NCBI GenBank assembly: GCA_903898755.1
Contig: CAIUGT010000087.1
Location: 1 to 32,915, forward strand
From: an uncultured bacterium
GTDB taxonomy: Bacteria; Planctomycetota; Phycisphaerae; Phycisphaerales; SM1A02
Length of the DNA: 32,915 nucleotides
Direction: 5' to 3'
The notes under the pieces are model-generated. The model made no database searches, was not told where the DNA came from, and saw only the letters and a program-made list of their open reading frames with translations. The translations under genes and the position numbers were made by a program. Positions 1-12,800 of this stretch are shown one piece after another; position 1 is the first letter of the stretch, and each line of letters opens with the position of its first letter.

Positions 1-3000
1 ATCGCTGACACCATTCTGCGTTCAACGGTGTTGCGCGGCGAAGCGGGGGGCGGTCAAGAGCAATTAACAAGCCCGCAGTTGGTGAAAGATTTGCGCCGCA
101 AGATCACCGTGGTCAGCGGTCAACGCAATGAGATCATGCCTCCGTGGTTGTGGATTGGTCGACAATATGGAGTGACAAGTCCAACGAGCCAAGAAACATT
201 TCAAAATGGAATGTTGTGGCTTGGACTTCATCCAGAATCTCCAGGCGCACGCGACGAAAACGGAAATGGCAGAATTGATACATCTGGTGGTTCAAACAGT
301 GAGCTTGGTTTCGGCAAGCAAGACTTAAGCCGGATTGCATGCTCTTCTGATCCTTTCTTGGACGGCAAGTCCATGAATGTGTCTAGTACAGATCCAATTG
401 ATGGTCGTGATTTCAGCCGAGCTCTGCGTTACTTTGAGGACATCAATCAAAAACTTGATCTTCGCAAACCGCTTCTTGTGACGCGCGATGTAATCAACAA
501 TCAAACTGGGGTAGCAGCCATTGATGGCATTCCTGATCGCACGGCTGATGGTGCGCTTGATCAATTCATGGCATTGACCGTTGATCAAGAACGCTTGGCA
601 ATGAATGATTTTGTTCGCGAAGCACGCGGACGAATCCGCGCAGCACTGCGCATTCATTCTCCAATGTCGCCTGCGGCATCGAGCGGCGTTTTGGTGACAT
701 GGGCGCTTGACGCGCTCGACCCAACTGTTCGCTTCTCTGATTACACCGATCGATTTTACGAGCACTATCTGTTCAGCATGAATGCGAAGGTGCAACATTT
801 TGCTCAAGTTGGATTTGCGATAGCCATTTCACCAGACACCACTGGCGACAAAATGAACGTTCCAACTTTGGGACAGGGCGGAACGGGTCCGCAGCCCGCG
901 AAAGACTTCATGTCTTTCCGCAGCGCGTGGTCTAGCGAAACGTTGTCCGCAAGTATGGCTGCCAATATTGCAACATGGCGCAGTCGCGCGGACTTGATGT
1001 ATTCACCCAACATTGGCAGTGGCTTACCCGATCCAACCCTTCCGCTGCGCGCAATTCATCAGCCAATCTTGCCCGCCATTCCACCTGTGGCTGGCGCGTC
1101 TTATGCACAAACAACACTCGCGCCTCTTGCGCTGCGTGCGGTTGATCCATCCAAAGAAACCACGCCGTTAATTGCCAAAGGAAAAGCGACATCAGGCACA
1201 GCTACTGCCACAGACATTGTGTTCCCCGGCATTGAAAAACATCCGTTCTTCACCGAGGTGTTCTTTGGTTGGGTGTATCCAGCCACCACCGCGGAAGACA
1301 CTGGAACACTTACTCCAGCTGTCTTTGACATGTGCATGGGCGCCGCGCCTGCGCAGACCACCATTGAAAAATATAAATATGTCGCGCTTGTCAATGGTCG
1401 TGTTGGCACCGGCTACGCGCCGCTTGATGTCACCACTTCAACTGGAACAACGCCCACCACTCCAGATGTGAAGCGGGATCAGCTGGATGAAATTCGAACG
1501 CCTGTGCTTGTTGTTCAAGTGGCTAATCCGTGGAACGAACCCATTCGCCTTGGTGATTTCCGCATCAATATTTTCGGAACGGATTATGACTTTCCAGATT
1601 ATGAATTGGACGCAACTGGAACAGTTGTCAAGGATTCCGCTGGCCTGCCTGTGCCACTGATGCTTGCGCCTGGAAATGAAACCGAACCCGCTACGGCAAC
1701 CGTGTATCTGATTGCCAATGTGATTGGTAATCCAAGCCAAGCCACCACCGTCCTTACTCCGCCCGCGGAAGGCGACATGTCCGATGTTGCAATGTGGGAT
1801 CCACTGTTTCGCAGACGTTGGCTTGATTACTTTGACTTGTATGAATATTCAGATGTGCCTATTGCGAATGGCACAACATGGTCAACCATGCCGCAGTTGG
1901 CCACATCGCCGCCATCAAGCCCATTGTTTCCATTCACTATGAAAAGCGCCTATCCAGGCGCAGCATTTGATAAGCAATTGTCGCGCAGTAAATTGCTCAA
2001 CGCCATGCAAGACACGCCGGGCAAGGCCAGCAATTTCCTAAAGGCTGGCGCTTTGCCTGGATCACCTAAGACTCTCACGCTATTTAAGCAAAGTTTAACG
2101 CGCGACAACATGGCTCGCGGCGTCTCCATGCATCGGGTGTTGAAAGATCCATCAACAGGTGTCGCTACCGGAACACTTCTAGAAGTTGATCGCTTTGACG
2201 GCCATTCAGATTTGGATCATTGGACGACGACAGGCAAAAACACTTCATTGGGAGCAGTTGCTGGCATTCCCATGTTCGCTGACGACCGCAACTTTGACAC
2301 CAACCTTGTCACTGGTGGTCGCTTCTGGACCGCGGCTGCGCGCATTACATTGCCACCAACAACCGGCGTGTTGGGTCGCGACGGAATTGCTGGCTTGACC
2401 ACGATGAATATTCCAGACTTGCTTGGCGCCGTGCCAAGTCCGTTGCCACTTCTTCCAACTGGTCTTGCCGTAGCGAGCGATTATTCCTACGACGGTCCCG
2501 GCGCAAGCGCATCTTTGTTTCCGCCTCCGACCGCCAAGGAACTTGTCCGCTCATCTAGTAAAAAGTTTCGGTATTTGGCTGTTCCACAAGGCAAAACGCA
2601 ATGCGGCGTAACGGCTCCGGCCAGCAGCGATTTGCCGCCTGATTCCGTCTATGGCCCGGCGTTATTTCCAGGAATTGTGTTGGGCAAAGTCATTCCCACG
2701 GTTGATACCAAAGCGGATGGCGACTACTTCACAACATGGACCCACGTCTCGCGTAATTGGTCGCGATTGTTTGACGCCAAGTTTGTCACAGTTGCGGCAA
2801 CAAACATTCCAAATCCAGCGCTCTCCACAAACGCGCAACTCAACTTGCCCGTCTGGGATTACACGCGTGAACTTGTCACTGGATCGTTCGCATCCAATCC
2901 GCTCCCAACCGATTCAACAAAATCTCGTAGCCCCATGATTCCTGTTGAACGATTTGCTCCGCGCTTTGTGTTTAGCAATCGCACGGAGCCAGAGTTCACA

Positions 3001-5502
3001 AACAGGCCGTTGTTGCTGCAACCATCTCGTATTGAATTGTCCGACTTTAAAATGGACGGCAAACTTACAAACGCAACTGCAAATGGCGGCGCATCTATTT
3101 CTGGTTCCACCGTGACCGTATCAATGACGCCTTGGACCACAACCAATCCGATTGCCGGTTCAAGCACCCCAGGCACTGTCACCGTTCCAAGCGCGGGGTT
3201 CACCAGCGCGGGCGATGTGTTTCAATTGGGAAGTTTCTCCACGCCTGCGGATCCAGATATTTGGTTCCCTGTTGTTGGCGACACAACTTGGATGATTCCA
3301 AGCACCACCGCGCCAATTGTGACATTCAACATGTTGCTTACACCAGTGTGGGCGCCGCTACCAGATTTTTGTGGATTGGTGCCACCGTCAACCAGCACGC
3401 AAGATTCAACGGTGAGTCAAGCGAATTGGCCAACAATGGTATTGCGCAAACCAACGTCGTTTAATTGCCAGACCGTCATGTACAACGCGGTGCCAAATTA
3501 TTATCCAGATACTGCAAGCAATCCATTGCCCAAGAAAGTCAAAGCGTTCTACGGAAATTCACGAGAGGGGTCAACTTCATTTTCTGATACTAAGTTTGTC
3601 ACGCCACTATGGTCAGTGCAAGCGGGATCTGTTCCAGTGAAAAACACCGCTGGAGAAACTTTTATGCCAGACGGTCAATACCGCGTGTTCATGGGTGACA
3701 AAGGCGCGCGCTTGCTTGATCACGATGGATTTACGTTGCCAATTGATTTGGCAACAGGTGGTGAAGCGGCAGGCAGGCCATGGCTTGCGCGTGGATTGTG
3801 GAACACGCTTGACCGCATTCCGCAGGCGGGCAGCTTGCAAATGTTGCAGAAGGATGATGACTTTGAACAGATTGGCGAGTTGCTTGATGTGTTTGCGTGG
3901 GGCCCCGCGTATCGCATTGATTCATCAACAAATGTGCTTGCTAAAACCAACGTGGCTCCCACTCTTTCGCCAACTCGCTTAGCAACTCCCGAAACTGTTT
4001 CACCAGTAGTAGGCGTGCGCAGGGCAGTTATTCCAAACGCGCAAGCCAAAGCCACCTTCGCGGAAATCATGAGCAACCGCGTGCCAGGTTTCCCCGTAGG
4101 TGAGGGACCGTTTATCAATCGCATTCAAGTTGATCCGCTGAATGTTGCGTTTAGTGGTGGCGGCGCAACTAGCACCCCGTATCAGTTTGGCGGCACAAGC
4201 GCGCTGCGAACTCCGTACGCGCCAAATGTTCCATGGGGTATGCGCATATTTGATTGCTTCACCGTGGACGGCGCGGGCGCGGCTTTACGATTTGATTGGA
4301 CTATTGCGGCCAATACCACTGACATTAAAAATGGTGGAAGCACGCTGTTAAGTGATCGCAATTCGTTGTCAAGCACGGCAAACAGACCTGTTGCGGCGCT
4401 TGTGCCAGTGGATGTTCGTAGCACAATTAATACCGCGTCCACAACATCAGTCACGCCGCAAATATTGGCGCAGTGGGAGTACGACCGCAGCCCAAGTTTG
4501 TCGGGCAATTTCTCCGGCTTGCCAACCAAAGGATTGTTGAACATCAACACCGCGTCCATTGAAGCGCTCAAGACATTGCCCAGCATGACGGAAATGGTGT
4601 ATGACGACACGGGTCGCTATGACGGTCCAACAACTGGATCGGGAACGATTGCTCCTCAAATTCCAGATCCAGGGTCATCCGGCGGCAATCCGTATGTGCG
4701 TATGCCGCTGGCTATTGAAATTTATCGCAATCAACTTGACCCAAACTCTTCCACAAGGCCATGGGTTTCGAAAAGCACCAATGCAATGGATGTGTATCTG
4801 GATCAGGCAAAACCTGAAACGGACCCGTTGTATCCAACCTACGTTGATCGTGGTGACACCATTGCTCCTGCGACCGCGCCGTTGCTTATTCCAAATCAGT
4901 TGCCAGTCAACGGTTTGCAAGTTGCCTACAACACGGGCATGCAAAGCCAGCGCGGCATTTCAACCATTGGCGAAGTGTTGGGCATGGCGCGCCAAGCCAG
5001 TGAAATGTCTTGGAGTATTCGTAGCTCTGGAACCGACCCGTACAACCAGAATTCCACACGTGATCGCCGATTCACTTCCAGCAATTATGACCCACATAAA
5101 GGCTGGGAAACCCGCGACGATCATGCCACCAACACAACGATCGAAGCGCTTGACGCGCGTCTATCAACGGACCGCCAAGGCTTTCGTCAATTTGATTTTG
5201 TCACAGGCAGCACTATCACTGACCGGCAAGCGCTGACCTATGACACAAGTTACGGCGATAGCGAGGAGTTGAATTTGCTCTTCAAGGGCATCTCGAACTT
5301 GGTCACCACACGCAGCGACGTGTTCACGGTGTATTTCAAAGTGCGGACCGTGAAACAAAATCCTGTCAATGGAAAGTGGAATGGCGCTGACCGCGAATTT
5401 GTGCTTGACGACGCTCGCTATGTCATGTGCGTGGACCGTACCAATGTGAACAGACCTTCGGACCAACCGCGCATTGTGTATTTCAGCCGCGTGCCGGAAT
5501 AA
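1..5502 (+). CDS. Giant GspK-like helix-hairpin-helix protein, 5' end outside window
   Basis: The reading frame is already open at base 1, so the true start lies upstream; about 1,833 codons are visible. I recognise only the C-terminal part. Around 4531-4575 it encodes GLLNINTASIEALKTLPSM, a helix-hairpin-helix of the type found in GspK minor pseudopilins and ComEA. A second half-motif, RGISTIGEVLG, follows near 4951-4983, and the end contains SNLVTTRSDVFTVYFKV, a C-terminal signature I associate with planctomycete GspK-like proteins. The preceding 1,500 residues are rich in Thr, Pro, Ser and Ala and include the stretch VANPWNEPIRLGDFRI, as in large envelope-associated proteins of the Verrucomicrobia/Planctomycetes group. 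The likely role is in or alongside a type II secretion or type IV pilus-like apparatus. That is an inference, because no pilin or secretion gene lies in the window and the N-terminus cannot be seen. No terminator is obvious after the stop. Confidence 0.85.
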   Translation: MADTILRSTVLRGEAGGGQEQLTSPQLVKDLRRKITVVSGQRNEIMPPWLWIGRQYGVTSPTSQETFQNGMLWLGLHPESPGARDENGNGRIDTSGGSNSELGFGKQDLSRIACSSDPFLDGKSMNVSSTDPIDGRDFSRALRYFEDINQKLDLRKPLLVTRDVINNQTGVAAIDGIPDRTADGALDQFMALTVDQERLAMNDFVREARGRIRAALRIHSPMSPAASSGVLVTWALDALDPTVRFSDYTDRFYEHYLFSMNAKVQHFAQVGFAIAISPDTTGDKMNVPTLGQGGTGPQPAKDFMSFRSAWSSETLSASMAANIATWRSRADLMYSPNIGSGLPDPTLPLRAIHQPILPAIPPVAGASYAQTTLAPLALRAVDPSKETTPLIAKGKATSGTATATDIVFPGIEKHPFFTEVFFGWVYPATTAEDTGTLTPAVFDMCMGAAPAQTTIEKYKYVALVNGRVGTGYAPLDVTTSTGTTPTTPDVKRDQLDEIRTPVLVVQVANPWNEPIRLGDFRINIFGTDYDFPDYELDATGTVVKDSAGLPVPLMLAPGNETEPATATVYLIANVIGNPSQATTVLTPPAEGDMSDVAMWDPLFRRRWLDYFDLYEYSDVPIANGTTWSTMPQLATSPPSSPLFPFTMKSAYPGAAFDKQLSRSKLLNAMQDTPGKASNFLKAGALPGSPKTLTLFKQSLTRDNMARGVSMHRVLKDPSTGVATGTLLEVDRFDGHSDLDHWTTTGKNTSLGAVAGIPMFADDRNFDTNLVTGGRFWTAAARITLPPTTGVLGRDGIAGLTTMNIPDLLGAVPSPLPLLPTGLAVASDYSYDGPGASASLFPPPTAKELVRSSSKKFRYLAVPQGKTQCGVTAPASSDLPPDSVYGPALFPGIVLGKVIPTVDTKADGDYFTTWTHVSRNWSRLFDAKFVTVAATNIPNPALSTNAQLNLPVWDYTRELVTGSFASNPLPTDSTKSRSPMIPVERFAPRFVFSNRTEPEFTNRPLLLQPSRIELSDFKMDGKLTNATANGGASISGSTVTVSMTPWTTTNPIAGSSTPGTVTVPSAGFTSAGDVFQLGSFSTPADPDIWFPVVGDTTWMIPSTTAPIVTFNMLLTPVWAPLPDFCGLVPPSTSTQDSTVSQANWPTMVLRKPTSFNCQTVMYNAVPNYYPDTASNPLPKKVKAFYGNSREGSTSFSDTKFVTPLWSVQAGSVPVKNTAGETFMPDGQYRVFMGDKGARLLDHDGFTLPIDLATGGEAAGRPWLARGLWNTLDRIPQAGSLQMLQKDDDFEQIGELLDVFAWGPAYRIDSSTNVLAKTNVAPTLSPTRLATPETVSPVVGVRRAVIPNAQAKATFAEIMSNRVPGFPVGEGPFINRIQVDPLNVAFSGGGATSTPYQFGGTSALRTPYAPNVPWGMRIFDCFTVDGAGAALRFDWTIAANTTDIKNGGSTLLSDRNSLSSTANRPVAALVPVDVRSTINTASTTSVTPQILAQWEYDRSPSLSGNFSGLPTKGLLNINTASIEALKTLPSMTEMVYDDTGRYDGPTTGSGTIAPQIPDPGSSGGNPYVRMPLAIEIYRNQLDPNSSTRPWVSKSTNAMDVYLDQAKPETDPLYPTYVDRGDTIAPATAPLLIPNQLPVNGLQVAYNTGMQSQRGISTIGEVLGMARQASEMSWSIRSSGTDPYNQNSTRDRRFTSSNYDPHKGWETRDDHATNTTIEALDARLSTDRQGFRQFDFVTGSTITDRQALTYDTSYGDSEELNLLFKGISNLVTTRSDVFTVYFKVRTVKQNPVNGKWNGADREFVLDDARYVMCVDRTNVNRPSDQPRIVYFSRVPE

Positions 5503-5639: not shown

Positions 5640-7010
5640 ATGCGCGCCTTGACCGATGCGGCTTATTTTGTGGCGGCCATATTCACCAGTCCGCTGTGGC
5701 TTTTTTGGCTCTTTCGCTCAGGTCAGCAGCGCACTGATTGGCGGGCGCGTTTTGGTTTTGGCGAGCCGTTGCCGAGAGCTCGTGCTGAGCCTACGGATGA
5801 TGCGCAATCATCTTCAAAGGCAAATGTAAAACGTGGCCGCATTCTTGTGCATGCTGTGAGCATGGGTGAGGTGAACGCAGCGCGGCTTCTGGTGGAGCGC
5901 CTGTGCCAGCATTGCGAAGTGGTGCTGAGTGCAACCACCGACACCGGCTTTGCGCGCGCGCTTGCGGTTGCACCAGTGGGTGTGAGCGTGGTTCGTTATC
6001 CGCTGGACATGAACATGGCGGTTGAGAGATTTTTAAACCGAGTTCAGCCAGATCTGGTTGCGCTAGTTGAACTTGAAGCGTGGCCTAATTTTATCCGCGC
6101 GTGCTCTTCGCGGCGCATTCCAATTGCCGTGGTCAATGGTCGCATCAGTGACCGTGGCTTTCGGCGTTACAAGTTGGCGCGCTGGTTTTTAAAGCCGCTC
6201 TTCAAGCGATTTCGATTTGTGTCCGCGCAAACGCAAATCTACGCCGATCGATTTGTGCACATGGGCGTTCCTGCGGAGCGAGTGCATGTGGGCGGCACCA
6301 TGAAGTGGGATGCCGCGCAGGTTGCGCCAATTGCTACCAATCACGCGGCGCAGCTACGCGCTTTTGAAGATGCGCAGCAACTTGCCAATGACTTGGCGCG
6401 CGAACTTGGAATTGATACCGCTCGTCCGCTTGTGGTTGCTGGAAGCACCGCCGAGGGCGAGGAAAAATTGCTGCATGCGTGTGTTCCAGAAGGAGTTCAA
6501 TTATTGTGCGCGCCGCGCAAGCCCGCGCGCTTTGACGCGGCGGCGCTTGACCTGCCTGGTTGCGTTCGTCGCACACAAAGACCAATTGGAAGTGGTGATG
6601 GACAGCGGGGGAGCGACCGATTTTTGCTTGACACCATGGGTGAATTAAAGAAGGCGTATGCGCTCGCCACCGTGGTTGTTGTGGGCCGCAGCTTTGGCGA
6701 CCTGCATGGCAGCGACATGATGGAGCCCGTTGCGCTGGGCAAAGCCACAATCATTGGTCCGCGCTACGGCGACTTTGCTGACACGGCCCAGAAGCTGCTT
6801 GATGCAGGCGGCATGTTGTGCGTCACCCGTGAAGCGCTGCCGCGTGTTTTGCAAGAACTCATCGCAGATGCCGCCGCGCGACAACGCATGGTCGACGCCG
6901 CATTGGGCGTGATTCGCCGTGAACAAGGCGCCACCATGCGAAACGAAATGTTGTTGCGAGAGCTGCTTCAAGAAACAATTCAAGCGCGCGTTGCTGTGGG
7001 GTGTGCATGA
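5640..7010 (+). CDS. waaA: 3-deoxy-D-manno-octulosonic acid (Kdo) transferase
   Basis: GT30 glycosyltransferase that transfers Kdo from CMP-Kdo to the lipid A precursor on the inner face of the cytoplasmic membrane. The 456-residue product begins with a hydrophobic anchor (about residues 8-25, AYFVAAIFTSPLWLFWLF). The conserved SMGE motif with the likely catalytic Glu is at 74-77, followed by VRYPLDM, ELEAWPNF (family form ETELWPN), NGRISDRG and VGGTMKWD. It is slightly longer than E. coli WaaA (about 425 residues), partly because of a polar linker at about residues 45-64 before the first Rossmann domain. The stop overlaps the thiL start as ATGA, so the two are probably translationally coupled. 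The gene implies an outer membrane with Kdo-containing lipid A. No Shine-Dalgarno sequence precedes the ATG. Family assignment is secure. Confidence 0.95.
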   Translation: MRALTDAAYFVAAIFTSPLWLFWLFRSGQQRTDWRARFGFGEPLPRARAEPTDDAQSSSKANVKRGRILVHAVSMGEVNAARLLVERLCQHCEVVLSATTDTGFARALAVAPVGVSVVRYPLDMNMAVERFLNRVQPDLVALVELEAWPNFIRACSSRRIPIAVVNGRISDRGFRRYKLARWFLKPLFKRFRFVSAQTQIYADRFVHMGVPAERVHVGGTMKWDAAQVAPIATNHAAQLRAFEDAQQLANDLARELGIDTARPLVVAGSTAEGEEKLLHACVPEGVQLLCAPRKPARFDAAALDLPGCVRRTQRPIGSGDGQRGSDRFLLDTMGELKKAYALATVVVVGRSFGDLHGSDMMEPVALGKATIIGPRYGDFADTAQKLLDAGGMLCVTREALPRVLQELIADAAARQRMVDAALGVIRREQGATMRNEMLLRELLQETIQARVAVGCA

Positions 7011-7981
7011 GCGCTGATTTACCGCGCGCAGATTCATTCGCGGAGGACGCATTGCTTGCGCACATACACACAACGGTCGCTGGCGCGGAGAATGTGGTTG
7101 TTGGTCCTGGCGACGACATGGCAGTGATCAAAGTGAACGGTGGAGAGTTGCTGGCCGCCAAAGATTTATTGGTTGAAGGCCGCCATTTTTTGGGCACGGC
7201 AAGCATGGCGCAGATTGGCCGCAAAGCCGTTACTCGCAACATCAGCGATGTGGCCGCCATGGCCGCAAAGCCTGTTGCCATTCTTGCGGCATGTGTTTTG
7301 CCGCGCTCCATAACTCAAGCGTGCGCGCAAGAATTGGTAGACGCCATTTCGCGCACGGCCGCGCACTTTGGCGCGCCATTGATTGGTGGCGACACATGCG
7401 TGCATGTTGCAAATGGTCCGCTCACAATTTCCGTGACCGTGCTTGCGCAGCCACTTGATGGCGTGAAACCAATTCTTCGCAGCGGCGCGCGCGCGGGCGA
7501 TCAACTTTTTGTCACGGGTGCGCTTGGCGGTTCACTCCAACCGGATGGGGGTGGACATCACTTCACATTTGAGCCACGTCTAGCGGAATCCCACGCGTTG
7601 GCTCGGCTGCTTGGCGCCAATGTGCACGCCATGATGGATCTCTCAGATGGTCTTGCCCGTGACGGCGCTCGTTTTTCGCAAGCAAGCGCGTTGCAAGCGG
7701 TCATTATTGCTGAACAGCTTCCGTGCACGCCCGCATGCGTAAAGGCGCACACGCAAGTGAATGCGTGGCGGGGCGCTTTGGGTGACGGCGAAGATTATGA
7801 ATTGCTGTTCGCGGTGGCGGCTGGCGTGAAAGTGCCCGCGACCATTGGCCCAAACAACACTCCGCTGACTTGCATTGGTTCTTTGCAAGCGTTGCCAGGC
7901 ACAAATTCAGAGGCATTGATTTGTATGCACAATCAGAAAGTGGTGGATGTTTCCCAACTTGGACTTTGGCATAACACTTAA
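7007..7981 (+). CDS. thiL: Thiamine-monophosphate kinase
   Basis: ATP-dependent phosphorylation of thiamine monophosphate to thiamine diphosphate, the last step of cofactor synthesis, in the cytoplasm. I start it at the ATG at 7007, which overlaps the waaA stop (ATGA); an upstream in-frame GTG at 7001 is less likely. The 324-residue product has the usual length and the AIR-synthase-like fold motifs: GPGDDMAV (33-40), KDLLVEGRHF (52-61), GRKAVTRNISDVAAMAAKP (71-89), later IGGDTC and MMDLSDGLARD, and GDGEDYELLF near the C-terminus. These give the metal- and nucleotide-binding acidic residues. The coupling to waaA has no obvious metabolic logic. A 149-base gap follows before the next gene, with no convincing terminator in it. 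Confidence 0.95.
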   Translation: MSADLPRADSFAEDALLAHIHTTVAGAENVVVGPGDDMAVIKVNGGELLAAKDLLVEGRHFLGTASMAQIGRKAVTRNISDVAAMAAKPVAILAACVLPRSITQACAQELVDAISRTAAHFGAPLIGGDTCVHVANGPLTISVTVLAQPLDGVKPILRSGARAGDQLFVTGALGGSLQPDGGGHHFTFEPRLAESHALARLLGANVHAMMDLSDGLARDGARFSQASALQAVIIAEQLPCTPACVKAHTQVNAWRGALGDGEDYELLFAVAAGVKVPATIGPNNTPLTCIGSLQALPGTNSEALICMHNQKVVDVSQLGLWHNT

Positions 7982-8130
7982 TGCGTCCCATTCTGTCTGG
8001 GCAACAAATATTGCAAAGCACACACTTGTCCAGTTCAAATTGGTGCATGCCGTCAAAAGAAATTGCCTCATGGCTACACTTTGCCTTCTGCTGAGCATGT
8101 ATTTTCAATTCATAAATTCCAAACCAACCC

Positions 8131-8748
8131 ATGAAGACATTTGAAATCACAACACATTCCCACGCGCAGACCGAGGAGGTCGCTTGCATGCTCGCCAAGC
8201 TGCTTGTTGGTGGTGAAACCATCGCGCTGCGTGGCGATCTTGGCGCGGGCAAGACATGCTTTGTGCGCGGACTTGCAAGTGGTCTAAGTTGCGATGAGCG
8301 TCAAGTGAGCAGTCCAACATTTATTGTTTTGCAGCGCTACCGCGGCGCGCGCATAGATCTGGTGCACGTGGACGCGTATCGCTTAAGCAACCCAGAGCAA
8401 CTGCGCGACAGCGGCCTTGAACTTGGCGCGCATGACAGCGTTGCCGCAATTGAATGGTCTGAGCGCGTTGAAAGTGAATTACCCGCGGACACCATTACGG
8501 TTTCACTTGCCGCCACCAGTCCAACCGAGCGCGCCGTCACCATCCACGCGTCTGACAATTTCATAGAGCGCCTTGGCATGAGCCTGCGCCCTCGACCATG
8601 CGCTATTTGCAAAGCGCCCGTTGAATTTCTTGGTCAAACAAAACCATTCTGCAGCAAGCGCTGCCGCGACGTGGATCTGGGTCGATGGATTGATGGGCGC
8701 TACCAAATTTCCAGGCCCATTGAGCAGACTGATTTAGACGAGGACTGA
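8131..8748 (+). CDS. tsaE: TsaE-YacG fusion: t6A ATPase plus gyrase-inhibitor zinc finger
   Basis: Residues 1 to about 148 are TsaE, the ATPase that works with TsaB and TsaD to make t6A37 in ANN-decoding tRNAs. They contain Walker A GDLGAGKT (35-42), SSPTFIVLQRY (60-70), HVDAYRL (79-85) and IEWSERV (107-113). Residues about 155-197 are a complete YacG domain: CAIC (Cys157, Cys160), then KPFCSKRCRDVDLGRWIDG (Cys174, Cys178) and YQISRP. Free-standing YacG is a small zinc protein that binds GyrB and inhibits DNA gyrase. The reading frame is continuous across the junction with no stop or frameshift. An in-frame ATG at 8578 (Met150) sits just before the YacG part and could in principle give YacG alone, though no clear ribosome binding site precedes it. 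The upstream leader (AAACCAACCC before the ATG) also lacks a Shine-Dalgarno sequence. Both domain assignments are secure. Confidence 0.93.
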   Translation: MKTFEITTHSHAQTEEVACMLAKLLVGGETIALRGDLGAGKTCFVRGLASGLSCDERQVSSPTFIVLQRYRGARIDLVHVDAYRLSNPEQLRDSGLELGAHDSVAAIEWSERVESELPADTITVSLAATSPTERAVTIHASDNFIERLGMSLRPRPCAICKAPVEFLGQTKPFCSKRCRDVDLGRWIDGRYQISRPIEQTDLDED

Positions 8749-8882: not shown

Positions 8883-10808
8883 TCACCCAGTGATGTCGCC
8901 TCCAACGACGTTACGCAGCGCCATAATGGACTCGCGCAGTGCCGCGGCGGCATGTGAAAATTCACTTGTGGCTTCTTGAGCGCGCGACGCGTTTTGCGTG
9001 AGCGCGTCCATGGCTTGACGAATTTGGTCCGCACCTTGCACTTGACTTTGCATGCCCTCGGTCACTTCACTGAAACTGTTTTCAACACTGCCAACTTGAT
9101 CAATGACTCTGGTCAGGCGTTGGCCGACCTCGCCCACATTGGTCACGCCGCGGCGCACTTGCTCGCTGAAGCGGTCCATTTCCATAACGCCGCCAGAAAC
9201 AGCGGCTTGCATTTGTTGAACATTCTTTTCAATATCAAGCGTGGCGGCGGCGGTCTGATCGGCAAGACGACGAATTTCACGAGCCACCACCAAGAAACCA
9301 CGACCACTATCGCCGGCTTTTTCCGCTTCAATGGCTGCGTTCACGCTGAGCAAATTGGTTTGGTCAGATACCTTTGTAATTGCATCAACAATCGCATTAA
9401 TGCTGCTGGCTTTCTCAAAAATCATGGACAGGCGTTCGGCGACATTGGTGGTCGCGTTGGCAAGTCCTTCCATGGTGGCGCCCATGGCTTGCACCCCAAT
9501 CCGGCCCTCGGATGCGTTCTGCGATGACTCGCTTGCGGCCTTTGAAATGCCCTCCATTTTGCTCAGTAATTCGCTGCCAGTCACTGTGATCTGGCGCACG
9601 GCCGCGGCAATCTCCACGCTGTTTGCGCCAAATGATTGCGACACGGATTCTTGTTGGCGGCTGGAACCAGCCATTTCAATGGCGGTGCTGCTAATGCCTA
9701 CAGTCACACGGCTGACTTCACCAACAACTTTGGTGGCGGTGCTCAAAATAAGCGTGCCCATGATGAGAATTCCAACAACACCAACCAGAAGGTTAAGCCA
9801 TAAGTCGCTCAAAATTTCATGGATTAAAAGAGCGCGAGGAATTTCAACAACAACTTTCCAATCATTCACGGCAACACGGGTCATCGCGTGAATAGTTTCA
9901 GACTTGTTCAGTGGGTTTAAAGCGGTCCCAAGAACATTTTTTCCGCTTTGAGCCAATAAAGTGCGCAACGACATCGCCCACGGCGTCTTGTCGAGTGGCT
10001 TGCCTGAAATGGATTCAAAGGTGGCGCGAGTTTGTTCGGTGGCGGTGATGTCGCCTGGATATGCGGCGACAAAATTATCCTCGTCGGTGAGCAAATACAC
10101 ATTCAGGCCACTTTGAATCGCAAGTTCTTTTATAGTTTCGCTCGCAAATACAAGCGGCCTGCTTAATCCAACAACGCCAGCAAATTTTCCATCAATCAAA
10201 AATGGCAAGACAAACTCCGTCACCAATTCTCCTTCATGCATATGTGGTTCTGTCACAATAATTTTGTGAAAGTTTCCATTGGAAAAATCTTGCTTAGCGG
10301 TTTTGTAATATTTGCTTTCGACAACATTGTTGATGGGTCGCAATACCAAGGCATGTGCTGGTGTTGAATCGCGATCAAATCGTGGAACAAATCGACCGCT
10401 TGAATCAGTGGCTTGATCGATTGACAGCTCGCCAGTTGAAGATGGACCAACAGCCGGCTTTGTCGCCGCGCCAGTCGTTTCGTACGCAACAAAGACACCA
10501 AGCTTTGGATTGGCCTCGGCAACAGCCTGCGCATATTTGAGCATGTCGGCTTTCTTGGAGTACAGGCCATTTTCAATCGCAAGCGCCATGGCGGTCACAG
10601 TGGCAATCGCTTTTTGGTCGTATGTTTCTCCCCGAGAAGTGATGTATTCAGCTTCTGTCTTGGCTAGTTCGCGAGCATCATGTTGCTTGGAAGTCACGCT
10701 TAAAAAAGTGGTGGTTACAACAATGGCAACAACAACCAAGACGCTGGGGAGCACGCCAAACTTCACAAATCGACCAAGCAGCCCGCGACGAAATTTCTGA
10801 AGGATCAT
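8883..10808 (-). CDS. Methyl-accepting chemotaxis protein, Cache sensor, WspA-like tip (copy 1)
   Basis: Membrane chemoreceptor of 641 residues. TM1 is at about 14-37. A periplasmic double-Cache-like sensor at about 40-325 includes VLPFLIDGKFAGVVGLSRPL, typical of Cache folds. TM2 is at about 335-357. The cytoplasmic signalling coiled coil runs from about 360 to 635. No HAMP domain is visible: the coiled coil follows TM2 after a short TATKVVGEVSRV linker. The hairpin tip (about 478-520) reads KVSDQTNLLSVNAAIEAEKAG, then RGFLVVAREIRRLADQTA. From memory this resembles Pseudomonas WspA more than classical Tsr/Tar receptors, suggesting coupling to an alternative (Wsp-like, cyclic-di-GMP) pathway. 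There is no C-terminal NWETF-type CheR tether. The neighbouring 10869-12800 gene is a close paralogue in the same orientation. No chemotaxis kinase lies in the window. No Shine-Dalgarno sequence precedes the ATG; see the -10 box at 10815. Confidence 0.93.
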   Translation of the reverse strand: MILQKFRRGLLGRFVKFGVLPSVLVVVAIVVTTTFLSVTSKQHDARELAKTEAEYITSRGETYDQKAIATVTAMALAIENGLYSKKADMLKYAQAVAEANPKLGVFVAYETTGAATKPAVGPSSTGELSIDQATDSSGRFVPRFDRDSTPAHALVLRPINNVVESKYYKTAKQDFSNGNFHKIIVTEPHMHEGELVTEFVLPFLIDGKFAGVVGLSRPLVFASETIKELAIQSGLNVYLLTDEDNFVAAYPGDITATEQTRATFESISGKPLDKTPWAMSLRTLLAQSGKNVLGTALNPLNKSETIHAMTRVAVNDWKVVVEIPRALLIHEILSDLWLNLLVGVVGILIMGTLILSTATKVVGEVSRVTVGISSTAIEMAGSSRQQESVSQSFGANSVEIAAAVRQITVTGSELLSKMEGISKAASESSQNASEGRIGVQAMGATMEGLANATTNVAERLSMIFEKASSINAIVDAITKVSDQTNLLSVNAAIEAEKAGDSGRGFLVVAREIRRLADQTAAATLDIEKNVQQMQAAVSGGVMEMDRFSEQVRRGVTNVGEVGQRLTRVIDQVGSVENSFSEVTEGMQSQVQGADQIRQAMDALTQNASRAQEATSEFSHAAAALRESIMALRNVVGGDITG

Positions 10809-10868: not shown

Positions 10869-12800
10869 TCAAACAGAGAGTTCACCACTAATGACTTTGC
10901 GCAAGGAAAAAATCGCCTCACGCAAGGATTCCGAAGCAGATGAAAATTCGCTTGTCGCTTCTTGCGCGCGTGATGCGTTCTTGGAGAGACCATCCATGGC
11001 TTGGCGGATTTGATCCGCACCTTGGGTTTGTTGTTGCATGGCCTCGGTCACCTCGGAGAAACTGCTTTCGACACCGGAGACTTGGTCAATGACTTTGGTC
11101 AATCGCAAGCCAACATCGCCAACGGTGGTCACGCCACGGCGCACTTGCTCGCTAAATCGGTCCATTTCCATAACTCCACCAGAAACCGCGGCTTGCATTT
11201 GCTGAACCATTTTTTCAATATCAAGTGTGGCCGAAGCGGTCTGATCCGCAAGGCGACGAATTTCTCGCGCAACAACTAAAAACCCACGTCCACTTTCACC
11301 AGCTTTTTCAGCCTCAATGGCGGCATTCACGCTGAGTAAATTTGTTTGATCTGAAACCTTGGTGATGGTGTCAATGATGGTGTTGATACTGCTTGCCTTC
11401 TCAAAAATCATGGAGAGGCGGTCAGCCACATTGGTTGTGGCGCTGGAAAGATTTTCCATGGTGCTCCCAATCGCTTGAACGCCAACGCGACCCTGGGAGG
11501 CATTCTGCGCCGACTCGCTGGAAGCCTGAGCGATCTTCTTCATGTTGCGGAGCAATTCCTCGCCAGTCACCGTGATTTGTCTGACCGCGGCGGCAATCTC
11601 AACACTGCTGGAACCAAAATTTTGCGTCATGGATTCTTGTTGACGACTCGAGCCCGCCATCATATTTGCCGTGTTGCTGATTCCAACAGTGACTCCGCTG
11701 ACTTCGCCAACAACTTTGGTTGCGGTTCGCAGAATAAGCACGGCCATGATGAGAATTCCAACAATGCTTAACACTAAAGAAACCCATAAATCTGACCACA
11801 TTTCTCGCAACATCAGGGCTCCTGGAATTTCGACGATCACTTTCCAGCCACCTGTTCGGACTGTTCCCATGACATGAATGCCATTTGAGTTTGAAAGGGG
11901 ATTCACCGCGCTTGAAACAACTTCTGAGGTCTTTTGAAAAACAATATCGCGTAAAGGGTTTGCCCATTCAGTCGTATCCAATGGTTTTCCAGGCAATGCT
12001 GAGTAGGTTGCTCGCGACTGGTCATCCGCGGTGACATCGCCACACATTGCCGCAATGAATACATCCTGATTGGTCAGAAGCATGACGTTAATTTTGTTTC
12101 CATCACACATTTGCTTCATTAAATCCAAGGACGCAAGCAGCGTTCGTTGCAATCCAGCAATTCCCATGAATTGGCCATTGATGACGATTGGCATGACAAA
12201 CTCATAAACCATTTCGCCTTTGTGCATGTGTGGATCAGTCACAACAACTTTACGCGACTTGTTGTTCGTGAATTCTTGCTTGCAGCGGATGTAGTAATTG
12301 GTGTCTTCAATATTGGAAATGGAAGTCAAACCAAGCGTGCGCGTGGTGGTCGTGGTGTCGCGTTCGTAAAGTGGAGCGAAACGTCCATTGGCATTTGTTG
12401 CTTGGTCGATATTTTTATCCAATGAGGCCGTGGAAACAGTCGCTGGTGCATTGGACTGAATGCTGTTTGGTTCCAAAGCGACAAAAACACCAAAATCAGG
12501 GTTGGCTTCAGCGATTGGTTTTAAAAACTGAAGAATCTCAGCGCGCTTAGAAATTAAACTTGTTTCAAGGGCCAGGCGAATGACAGAAATTGTTCCAAGG
12601 GCCTTTTGATTTCGATTTTCAATTTCAGAAGTCAAACGAAGAGTCATTTTTCGGGCCAGCTCAGAAGCTTCAAGCTCAAACTTGAGAAGGCTGAAATACG
12701 TGTTCACGCAAAGAACGCCCACAATGACAATGACGCCAGGCAGAATCCCAAATTTCACAAATCGTCCAAGCAGGCCAGTGCGGAATTTTTTCAGGAGCAT
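10869..12800 (-). CDS. Methyl-accepting chemotaxis protein, Cache sensor, WspA-like tip (copy 2)
   Basis: Membrane chemoreceptor of 643 residues and a paralogue of the gene at 8883-10808, laid out the same way. It has TM1 at about 14-37, a periplasmic Cache-like sensor (with FVMPIVINGQFMGIAGLQR), TM2 at about 337-360 and a HAMP-less signalling coiled coil with tip KVSDQTNLLSVNAAIEAEKAG. The cytoplasmic halves of the two copies are nearly identical over long stretches (for example SGGVMEMDRFSEQVRRGVT), whereas the sensor halves have diverged. This suggests duplication followed by a change of ligand. Copy 1 follows 60 bases downstream in the same direction, but each copy has its own -10 box, so they may be transcribed separately. 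The upstream region 12801-13077 has no open frame I can support. No Shine-Dalgarno sequence precedes the ATG. Confidence 0.93.
   Translation of the reverse strand: MLLKKFRTGLLGRFVKFGILPGVIVIVGVLCVNTYFSLLKFELEASELARKMTLRLTSEIENRNQKALGTISVIRLALETSLISKRAEILQFLKPIAEANPDFGVFVALEPNSIQSNAPATVSTASLDKNIDQATNANGRFAPLYERDTTTTTRTLGLTSISNIEDTNYYIRCKQEFTNNKSRKVVVTDPHMHKGEMVYEFVMPIVINGQFMGIAGLQRTLLASLDLMKQMCDGNKINVMLLTNQDVFIAAMCGDVTADDQSRATYSALPGKPLDTTEWANPLRDIVFQKTSEVVSSAVNPLSNSNGIHVMGTVRTGGWKVIVEIPGALMLREMWSDLWVSLVLSIVGILIMAVLILRTATKVVGEVSGVTVGISNTANMMAGSSRQQESMTQNFGSSSVEIAAAVRQITVTGEELLRNMKKIAQASSESAQNASQGRVGVQAIGSTMENLSSATTNVADRLSMIFEKASSINTIIDTITKVSDQTNLLSVNAAIEAEKAGESGRGFLVVAREIRRLADQTASATLDIEKMVQQMQAAVSGGVMEMDRFSEQVRRGVTTVGDVGLRLTKVIDQVSGVESSFSEVTEAMQQQTQGADQIRQAMDGLSKNASRAQEATSEFSSASESLREAIFSLRKVISGELSV

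Follow-up and report, generated by a model that had tools for sequence, protein, structure and literature searches.

TsaE (YjeE/YdiB; PF02367, TIGR00150) is the tRNA-modification ATPase of the t6A pathway; as set out in a passage of one review, it binds, with ATP, where TsaD and TsaB meet and dissociates once hydrolysis has taken place (PMC9654439). YacG of Escherichia coli (PF03884; 4TMA, 1LV3) is a gyrase inhibitor, a free-standing protein of 65 residues. The part of a 2024 review that deals with it has its tryptophan inserted into GyrB and its C-terminal region in contact with GyrB and GyrA (PMC10886550), and an excerpt of a 2017 paper names YacG residue 40 (printed as F40) and GyrB F513 as contacts (PMC5507300). 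A literature search covering titles and abstract openings, with most subscription papers outside its scope, found no description of a TsaE-YacG fusion. We describe here the fusion of these two known families, widespread in one planctomycete order (Phycisphaerales), and a zinc-free variant of YacG; these are what we regard as new.

The protein studied resembles TsaE in its Walker A, SPTF, HxDxYR and EW motifs, its fold and its ThiL-like neighbor, but carries a C-terminal YacG domain. That domain has the four zinc cysteines and the PFCSKRC..DLG.W core of E. coli YacG, with a tryptophan that corresponds to W40, but is tethered behind TsaE. Two other differences from E. coli YacG are seen in the order: a common tail (Y.ISRPIE) and, in the family here called f2, the lack of three of the four cysteines. 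Our preferred reading, held with slightly better than even confidence, is that of a bifunctional protein derived from a thiL-tsaE-yacG cluster, the YacG half of which still binds gyrase.

Architecture and genome context

The window (the whole 32,915-nucleotide stretch of DNA that was analyzed) belongs to a draft genome of 2.59 Mb (154 contigs, 91.6% complete), a member of family f1. Features of the fused gene are collected in Table 1.

Table 1. Positions of the fused gene, its parts and its upstream neighbor in the window
Feature	Position	Strand	Basis
tsaE-yacG fusion ORF, 205 aa, ATG 8131 to TGA 8746-8748	8131..8748	+	ORF translation, Pfam
TsaE (t6A ATPase) domain, residues 9-134	8155..8532	+	PF02367, 116.5 bits (genome search) / 115.5 bits (protein search)
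Walker A GDLGAGKT, residues 35-42	8233..8256	+	G35, G38, G40, K41, T42 invariant in 64 aligned fusion proteins
Junction, residues 135-155, with predicted helix 142-151 leading into YacG domain	8533..8595	+	Pfam limits, structure model
YacG domain, residues 156-202	8596..8736	+	PF03884, 53.6 bits (genome search) / 51 bits (protein search)
Zinc-ligand cysteines C157, C160, C174, C178	8599..8664	+	translation, alignment
W186 codon, aligned to W40 of E. coli YacG	8686..8688	+	alignment
C-terminal tail YQISRPIEQTDLDED; Y.ISRP common to most of order	8701..8745	+	alignment
Upstream neighbor, ThiL-like (ThiL, thiamine-monophosphate kinase)	7001..7981	+	AIRS domain, 78.2 bits

The open reading frame translates with no internal stop. 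A preliminary description of this DNA had claimed TsaE and YacG domains in one frame of 205 residues, and both proved to lie above their Pfam cut-offs (115.5 against 26.6 bits for TsaE; 51 against 25.5 bits for YacG). The TsaE half also exceeds the NCBIfam equivalog cut-off of TIGR00150 (89.5 against 60.1); the YacG half falls below both of its equivalog cut-offs (PRK01343, 53.1 against 79; PRK00418, 35.6 against 83). The residues listed in that description are all in the translation, namely, Walker A, SPTF (residues 61-64), HVDAYRL (79-85) and EW (108-109) for TsaE and Cys157, Cys160, Cys174 and Cys178 for YacG. It had also proposed looking for a free-standing yacG; profile searches of the 91.6%-complete genome returned one YacG and one TsaE match, both inside this frame, and found neither a second yacG or tsaE nor a free-standing YacG. 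The same genome encodes TsaD (PF00814, 264.9 bits), and a second, partial PF00814 match (38 bits) is probably TsaB.

The structure model of the whole protein has a mean pLDDT of 95.5 and a pTM of 0.87, and in it residues 142-151 form a helix that leads from TsaE to the YacG domain. The closest matches among solved structures are TsaE of Thermotoga maritima and of Bacillus subtilis (6n9a_E, 5np9). The high pTM suggests that the two halves are held in a fixed predicted arrangement.

Elsewhere in the window, a 1,824-residue open reading frame (28-5502, + strand) has no Pfam match at 1e-5, and two adjoining, similar genes for methyl-accepting chemotaxis proteins (8883-10808 and 10869-12800, both on the - strand; MCPsignal, 107 and 111 bits) are probably a tandem duplication.

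Distribution of the pair and origin of the fusion

The preliminary description had proposed listing the architectures of related proteins. We searched 151 genomes of the order for both families and compared positions and frames. YacG was found at 123 places in 122 genomes, and 79 of these places are fused with TsaE in one open frame. At another 42, YacG follows TsaE on the same strand, with 83 to 797 bases between the profile matches (all but two below 300), and two, both in f4, have no nearby TsaE at that threshold. Fused and adjacent places, respectively, number 24 and 0 in f1, 32 and 8 in f2, 8 and 0 in f3, 8 and 34 in f4, 6 and 0 in f5, and 1 and 0 in f101. A finer survey with purpose-built profiles, of the 142 genomes with a retrieved locus, gave 78 fused, 42 adjacent and 21 with TsaE only, plus one whose stretch has YacG and lacks TsaE. 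The combined tally for all 151 is 83 fused, 42 adjacent, one with both genes apart and 21 with TsaE but no YacG; TsaE was not found in the other four. The fused genomes span at least 51 genera (a genus code being available for 78 of the 83). The physical link is thus stable and extends well beyond one protein, being present in the majority of the YacG-bearing genomes sampled from the order, with nearly all the others adjacent.

For the outside sample, we looked for TsaE in 40 YacG-carrying genomes, most of them near-complete, from the class and phylum. Among the 33 with both positions given, the two genes were never adjacent and lay on different contigs or more than 100 kb apart; likewise, none of 30 YacG loci from the phylum and class (stretches of 1.9 to 3.2 kb, some from the same genomes) contained TsaE. 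In this sample, pairing of tsaE and yacG is a feature of the order. A collection of contigs contained at least 567 TsaE loci, and the 80 that were listed comprise 13 fusions, 2 adjacent pairs and 65 with TsaE only. The 13 fusions are planctomycete by record except for one (L098, recorded as Vicinamibacteraceae), the YacG stretch of which is identical to that of an order genome (G393). The nearest named records to the window protein (L093, L094 and L095, from planctomycete metagenome assemblies) are all fused, with 179 to 183 of 205 residues identical.

At 121 of 141 order loci, the gene immediately upstream of tsaE, in the same orientation, is ThiL-like; at 4 a ThiL-like gene is further off or on the opposite strand, and at 16 none was found in the stretch. 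In B. subtilis, too, thiL and tsaE are adjacent. In the window, about 150 bases (7982-8130) separate tsaE from its ThiL-like neighbor; this spacer is wider than at nearly all other loci of the order and may hold a promoter.

Where the two genes are separate (42 pairs), yacG can be given a start that overlaps the end of tsaE in 22 pairs, one within 20 nucleotides in 10 and one further apart in 10; because the candidate start nearest to overlap was chosen, this count favors overlap. The arrangement fits the joining of a neighboring gene pair through loss of the stop between their reading frames, and the fusion would have arisen by read-through joining of tightly spaced, often overlapping genes in the thiL-tsaE-yacG cluster. 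Separate homologs at the same place, which the preliminary description had set against a fusion, do exist in 42 genomes; as a second form in which this gene pair occurs, they explain the origin of the fusion and do not cancel it.

The joining could have been neutral, a stop having been lost between operon neighbors whose products stay independent, with no cross-talk. The frequent overlaps agree with this, as do the alternation of fused and separate states inside f2 and f4, the varied downstream neighbors (21 scanned) and the 15 changes between fused and separate states needed on the TsaE tree, the topology of which is poorly resolved (it is built on few columns, and 53 of its 146 inner branches lack support). 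Against it, f1, f3, f5 and f101 show the fused state only, wherever YacG is found (39 places), and we consider a purely neutral history rather unlikely.

A zinc-free YacG variant in family f2

Thirty-three fused f2 proteins were examined (three more f2 fusions found by Pfam lie outside this set). Three of the four zinc cysteines are lost in 32 of their YacG domains, with CTAA, CTSA, CTIA, CTVA and similar patterns at the four sites; all four are kept in the remaining fusion and in all 8 separate f2 proteins. All 32 zinc-free forms are thus in TsaE fusions (e.g., L245:2666-2872, + strand), and for f2 a Fisher test relating zinc state to fusion (32, 1, 0, 8) gives a p of 9e-8, with kinship ignored. 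C, PF, DL and W occur in every one of the 32 domains, and their majority pattern is CP.TG..VPPDSPTWPFADERAR.ADL..WF. Of the 32 f2 places that Pfam showed as fused, 9 score below the PF03884 cut-off of 25.5 bits, and 4 more places were found by the purpose-built profile only. A zinc-free profile run on 392 genomes of the phylum gave 96 to 105 bits for five genomes, all of them f2 and zinc-free, and 72 bits or less at all other places reported (the sequences of which were inspected in part).

One zinc-free domain was modeled, with a core pLDDT of 93 to 98 and a less certain tail. Its top five Foldseek matches are four chains of 4tma (gyrase-bound YacG) and 1lv3 (NMR); the top three have probabilities of 0.99 to 1.00, but the E-values of the matches are only 0.06 to 0.26, usual for so short a domain. 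On this model, the f2 variant appears to keep the predicted YacG fold.

Zinc-bearing and zinc-free forms of the ribosomal proteins L31 and L36 are termed C+ and C-, and the f2 variant is like them in losing zinc ligands while retaining the fold. It differs from them in that the domain here is YacG and that the zinc-free forms seen are all fused to TsaE. We took the cysteine motifs of L31 and L36 (loci L307 to L336) to mark zinc-type and zinc-poor forms. On that assumption, L36 is zinc-poor in 5 and zinc-type in 3 of 8 genomes with zinc-free YacG, zinc-type in 5 of 5 f2 genomes with a zinc-intact YacG and intermediate in one f4 genome. The usual two cysteine pairs of L31 are absent in 15 of 15 cases. 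The window genome itself has zinc-poor L31 and L36 (L318, L336) yet a four-cysteine YacG. Since zinc-poor L31 and L36 are frequent here, the window genome included, general zinc economy is an alternative, of which ligand loss in f2 may be a part; the idea that the zinc loss is peculiar to fusion is weakened.

Selection, gyrase contacts and possible function

Against L093 to L095 (three pairs; the L096 pair was left out because its sequences were out of register), the window protein gave a dN/dS of 0.023 to 0.057 for YacG and 0.088 to 0.108 for TsaE. Synonymous divergence of the YacG half is 1.0 to 1.45 in these pairs, so dN/dS for so short a stretch is rough. Among L093 to L095 themselves, YacG has no amino acid change in one pair and a dN/dS of 0.09 to 0.10 in two, with 0.09 to 0.16 for TsaE; YacG is thus not always the lower (both are about 0.09 for L094-L095). 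When L093 and L094 are compared with L095, the YacG half shows about four times the synonymous divergence of the TsaE half (0.80 to 0.85 versus 0.21), perhaps because of recombination at the junction or because so short a stretch is saturated. Taken together, the ratios indicate that the YacG half is under purifying selection where it is present.

In an alignment of 64 of the 78 fusion proteins, the TsaE motif residues G35, G38, G40, K41, T42, S61, P62, H79, D81, R84, E108 and W109 are invariant, as are C157, F173, D182, L183 and W186 and also M1 and R134. In a wider alignment of 120 order genomes (46 fused with four cysteines, 32 fused with fewer and 42 separate), F173, D182 and W186 are present in all 120 and L183 in 119. 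All four are kept in 78 of 78 fused proteins, the C-terminal tail motif is kept in the majority, and Y.ISRPIE is common to much of the order. In E. coli YacG, the position aligned with W186 is residue 40, a tryptophan in strain K-12. These retained residues and the tail motif are consistent with retained gyrase binding, as judged from sequence; W, D, L and F could instead be retained for the fold. GyrB F513 is F in all 29 planctomycete GyrBs that cover the site (30 genomes given), including 11 of 11 from YacG-less genomes (in a twelfth, GyrB is a fragment that lacks this position). The site therefore exists but does not discriminate, being conserved with or without YacG, and we rejected it as evidence of coevolution.

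Under our preferred reading of a bifunctional, gyrase-binding protein, the N-terminal TsaE ATPase would act with TsaD and TsaB in the t6A pathway, and the C-terminal YacG would be a gyrase-binding module that places W186 into GyrB and uses its free tail, as E. coli YacG does. With TsaE attached at the N terminus of YacG, the tryptophan helix and the C-terminal tail would be left free. Fixed 1:1 production and tethering would be the likely consequence, so that the amount of gyrase-binding YacG would follow the amount of TsaE. Both gyrase binding here and any signal between the halves are things that we infer.

YacG may instead have been recruited to the t6A machinery, where it would stabilize TsaE or contact TsaB/TsaD or tRNA, with gyrase regulation lost and the zinc loss in f2 reflecting the change of role. 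The restriction of the tsaE-yacG neighborhood to the order (0 of 33 genomes outside) speaks for this, as do the fixed domain arrangement suggested by the model (pTM of 0.87), the ligand loss in 32 of 33 fused f2 proteins and the shortness of the junction, with a median of 27 residues between profile matches in four-cysteine proteins and 23 in zinc-free ones (minimum, 12 and 8). But the features retained include those reported to contact gyrase, the tryptophan and the tail, and the best structural matches of the zinc-free domain are still YacG chains bound to gyrase. In addition, 20 of the 43 f1 genomes examined have TsaE with a short tail only and no YacG match genome-wide (in G448, one of these, a contig end truncates the locus). 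Genome size is lower in this group (median, 2.45 versus 3.3 Mb; p of 6e-4, kinship ignored). On balance, recruitment of this kind seems doubtful.

Because the YacG half is missing from so many f1 genomes, it is dispensable, and its loss there counts against an important coupling of t6A to gyrase. We think it quite unlikely that the fusion is a regulatory device of the order, in which gyrase inhibition by the YacG half would depend on the ATP/ADP state of TsaE or on docking to TsaB-TsaD, supercoiling would follow translation capacity, and f2 would possess a zinc-free gyrase-binding domain that exists only fused. The tie between t6A or translation status and gyrase activity that the preliminary description had suggested stays a conjecture. 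An artifact of assembly or sequencing, such as the missed stop raised in the preliminary description, has practically no chance of being the explanation even for a draft in 154 contigs and was rejected, since the same fusion recurs in L093 to L095, in single-contig genomes (e.g., G368 and G397) and across at least 51 genera, which excludes chance and sequencing error.

For the YacG family, the f2 variants show which features are kept (the first cysteine, F, D, L, W and much of the tail) and which can be lost (three zinc ligands). The physiological role of YacG is, in our judgment, not settled; adjacency or fusion kept across one order gives it a partner by genome context and makes a link between t6A and gyrase directly testable.
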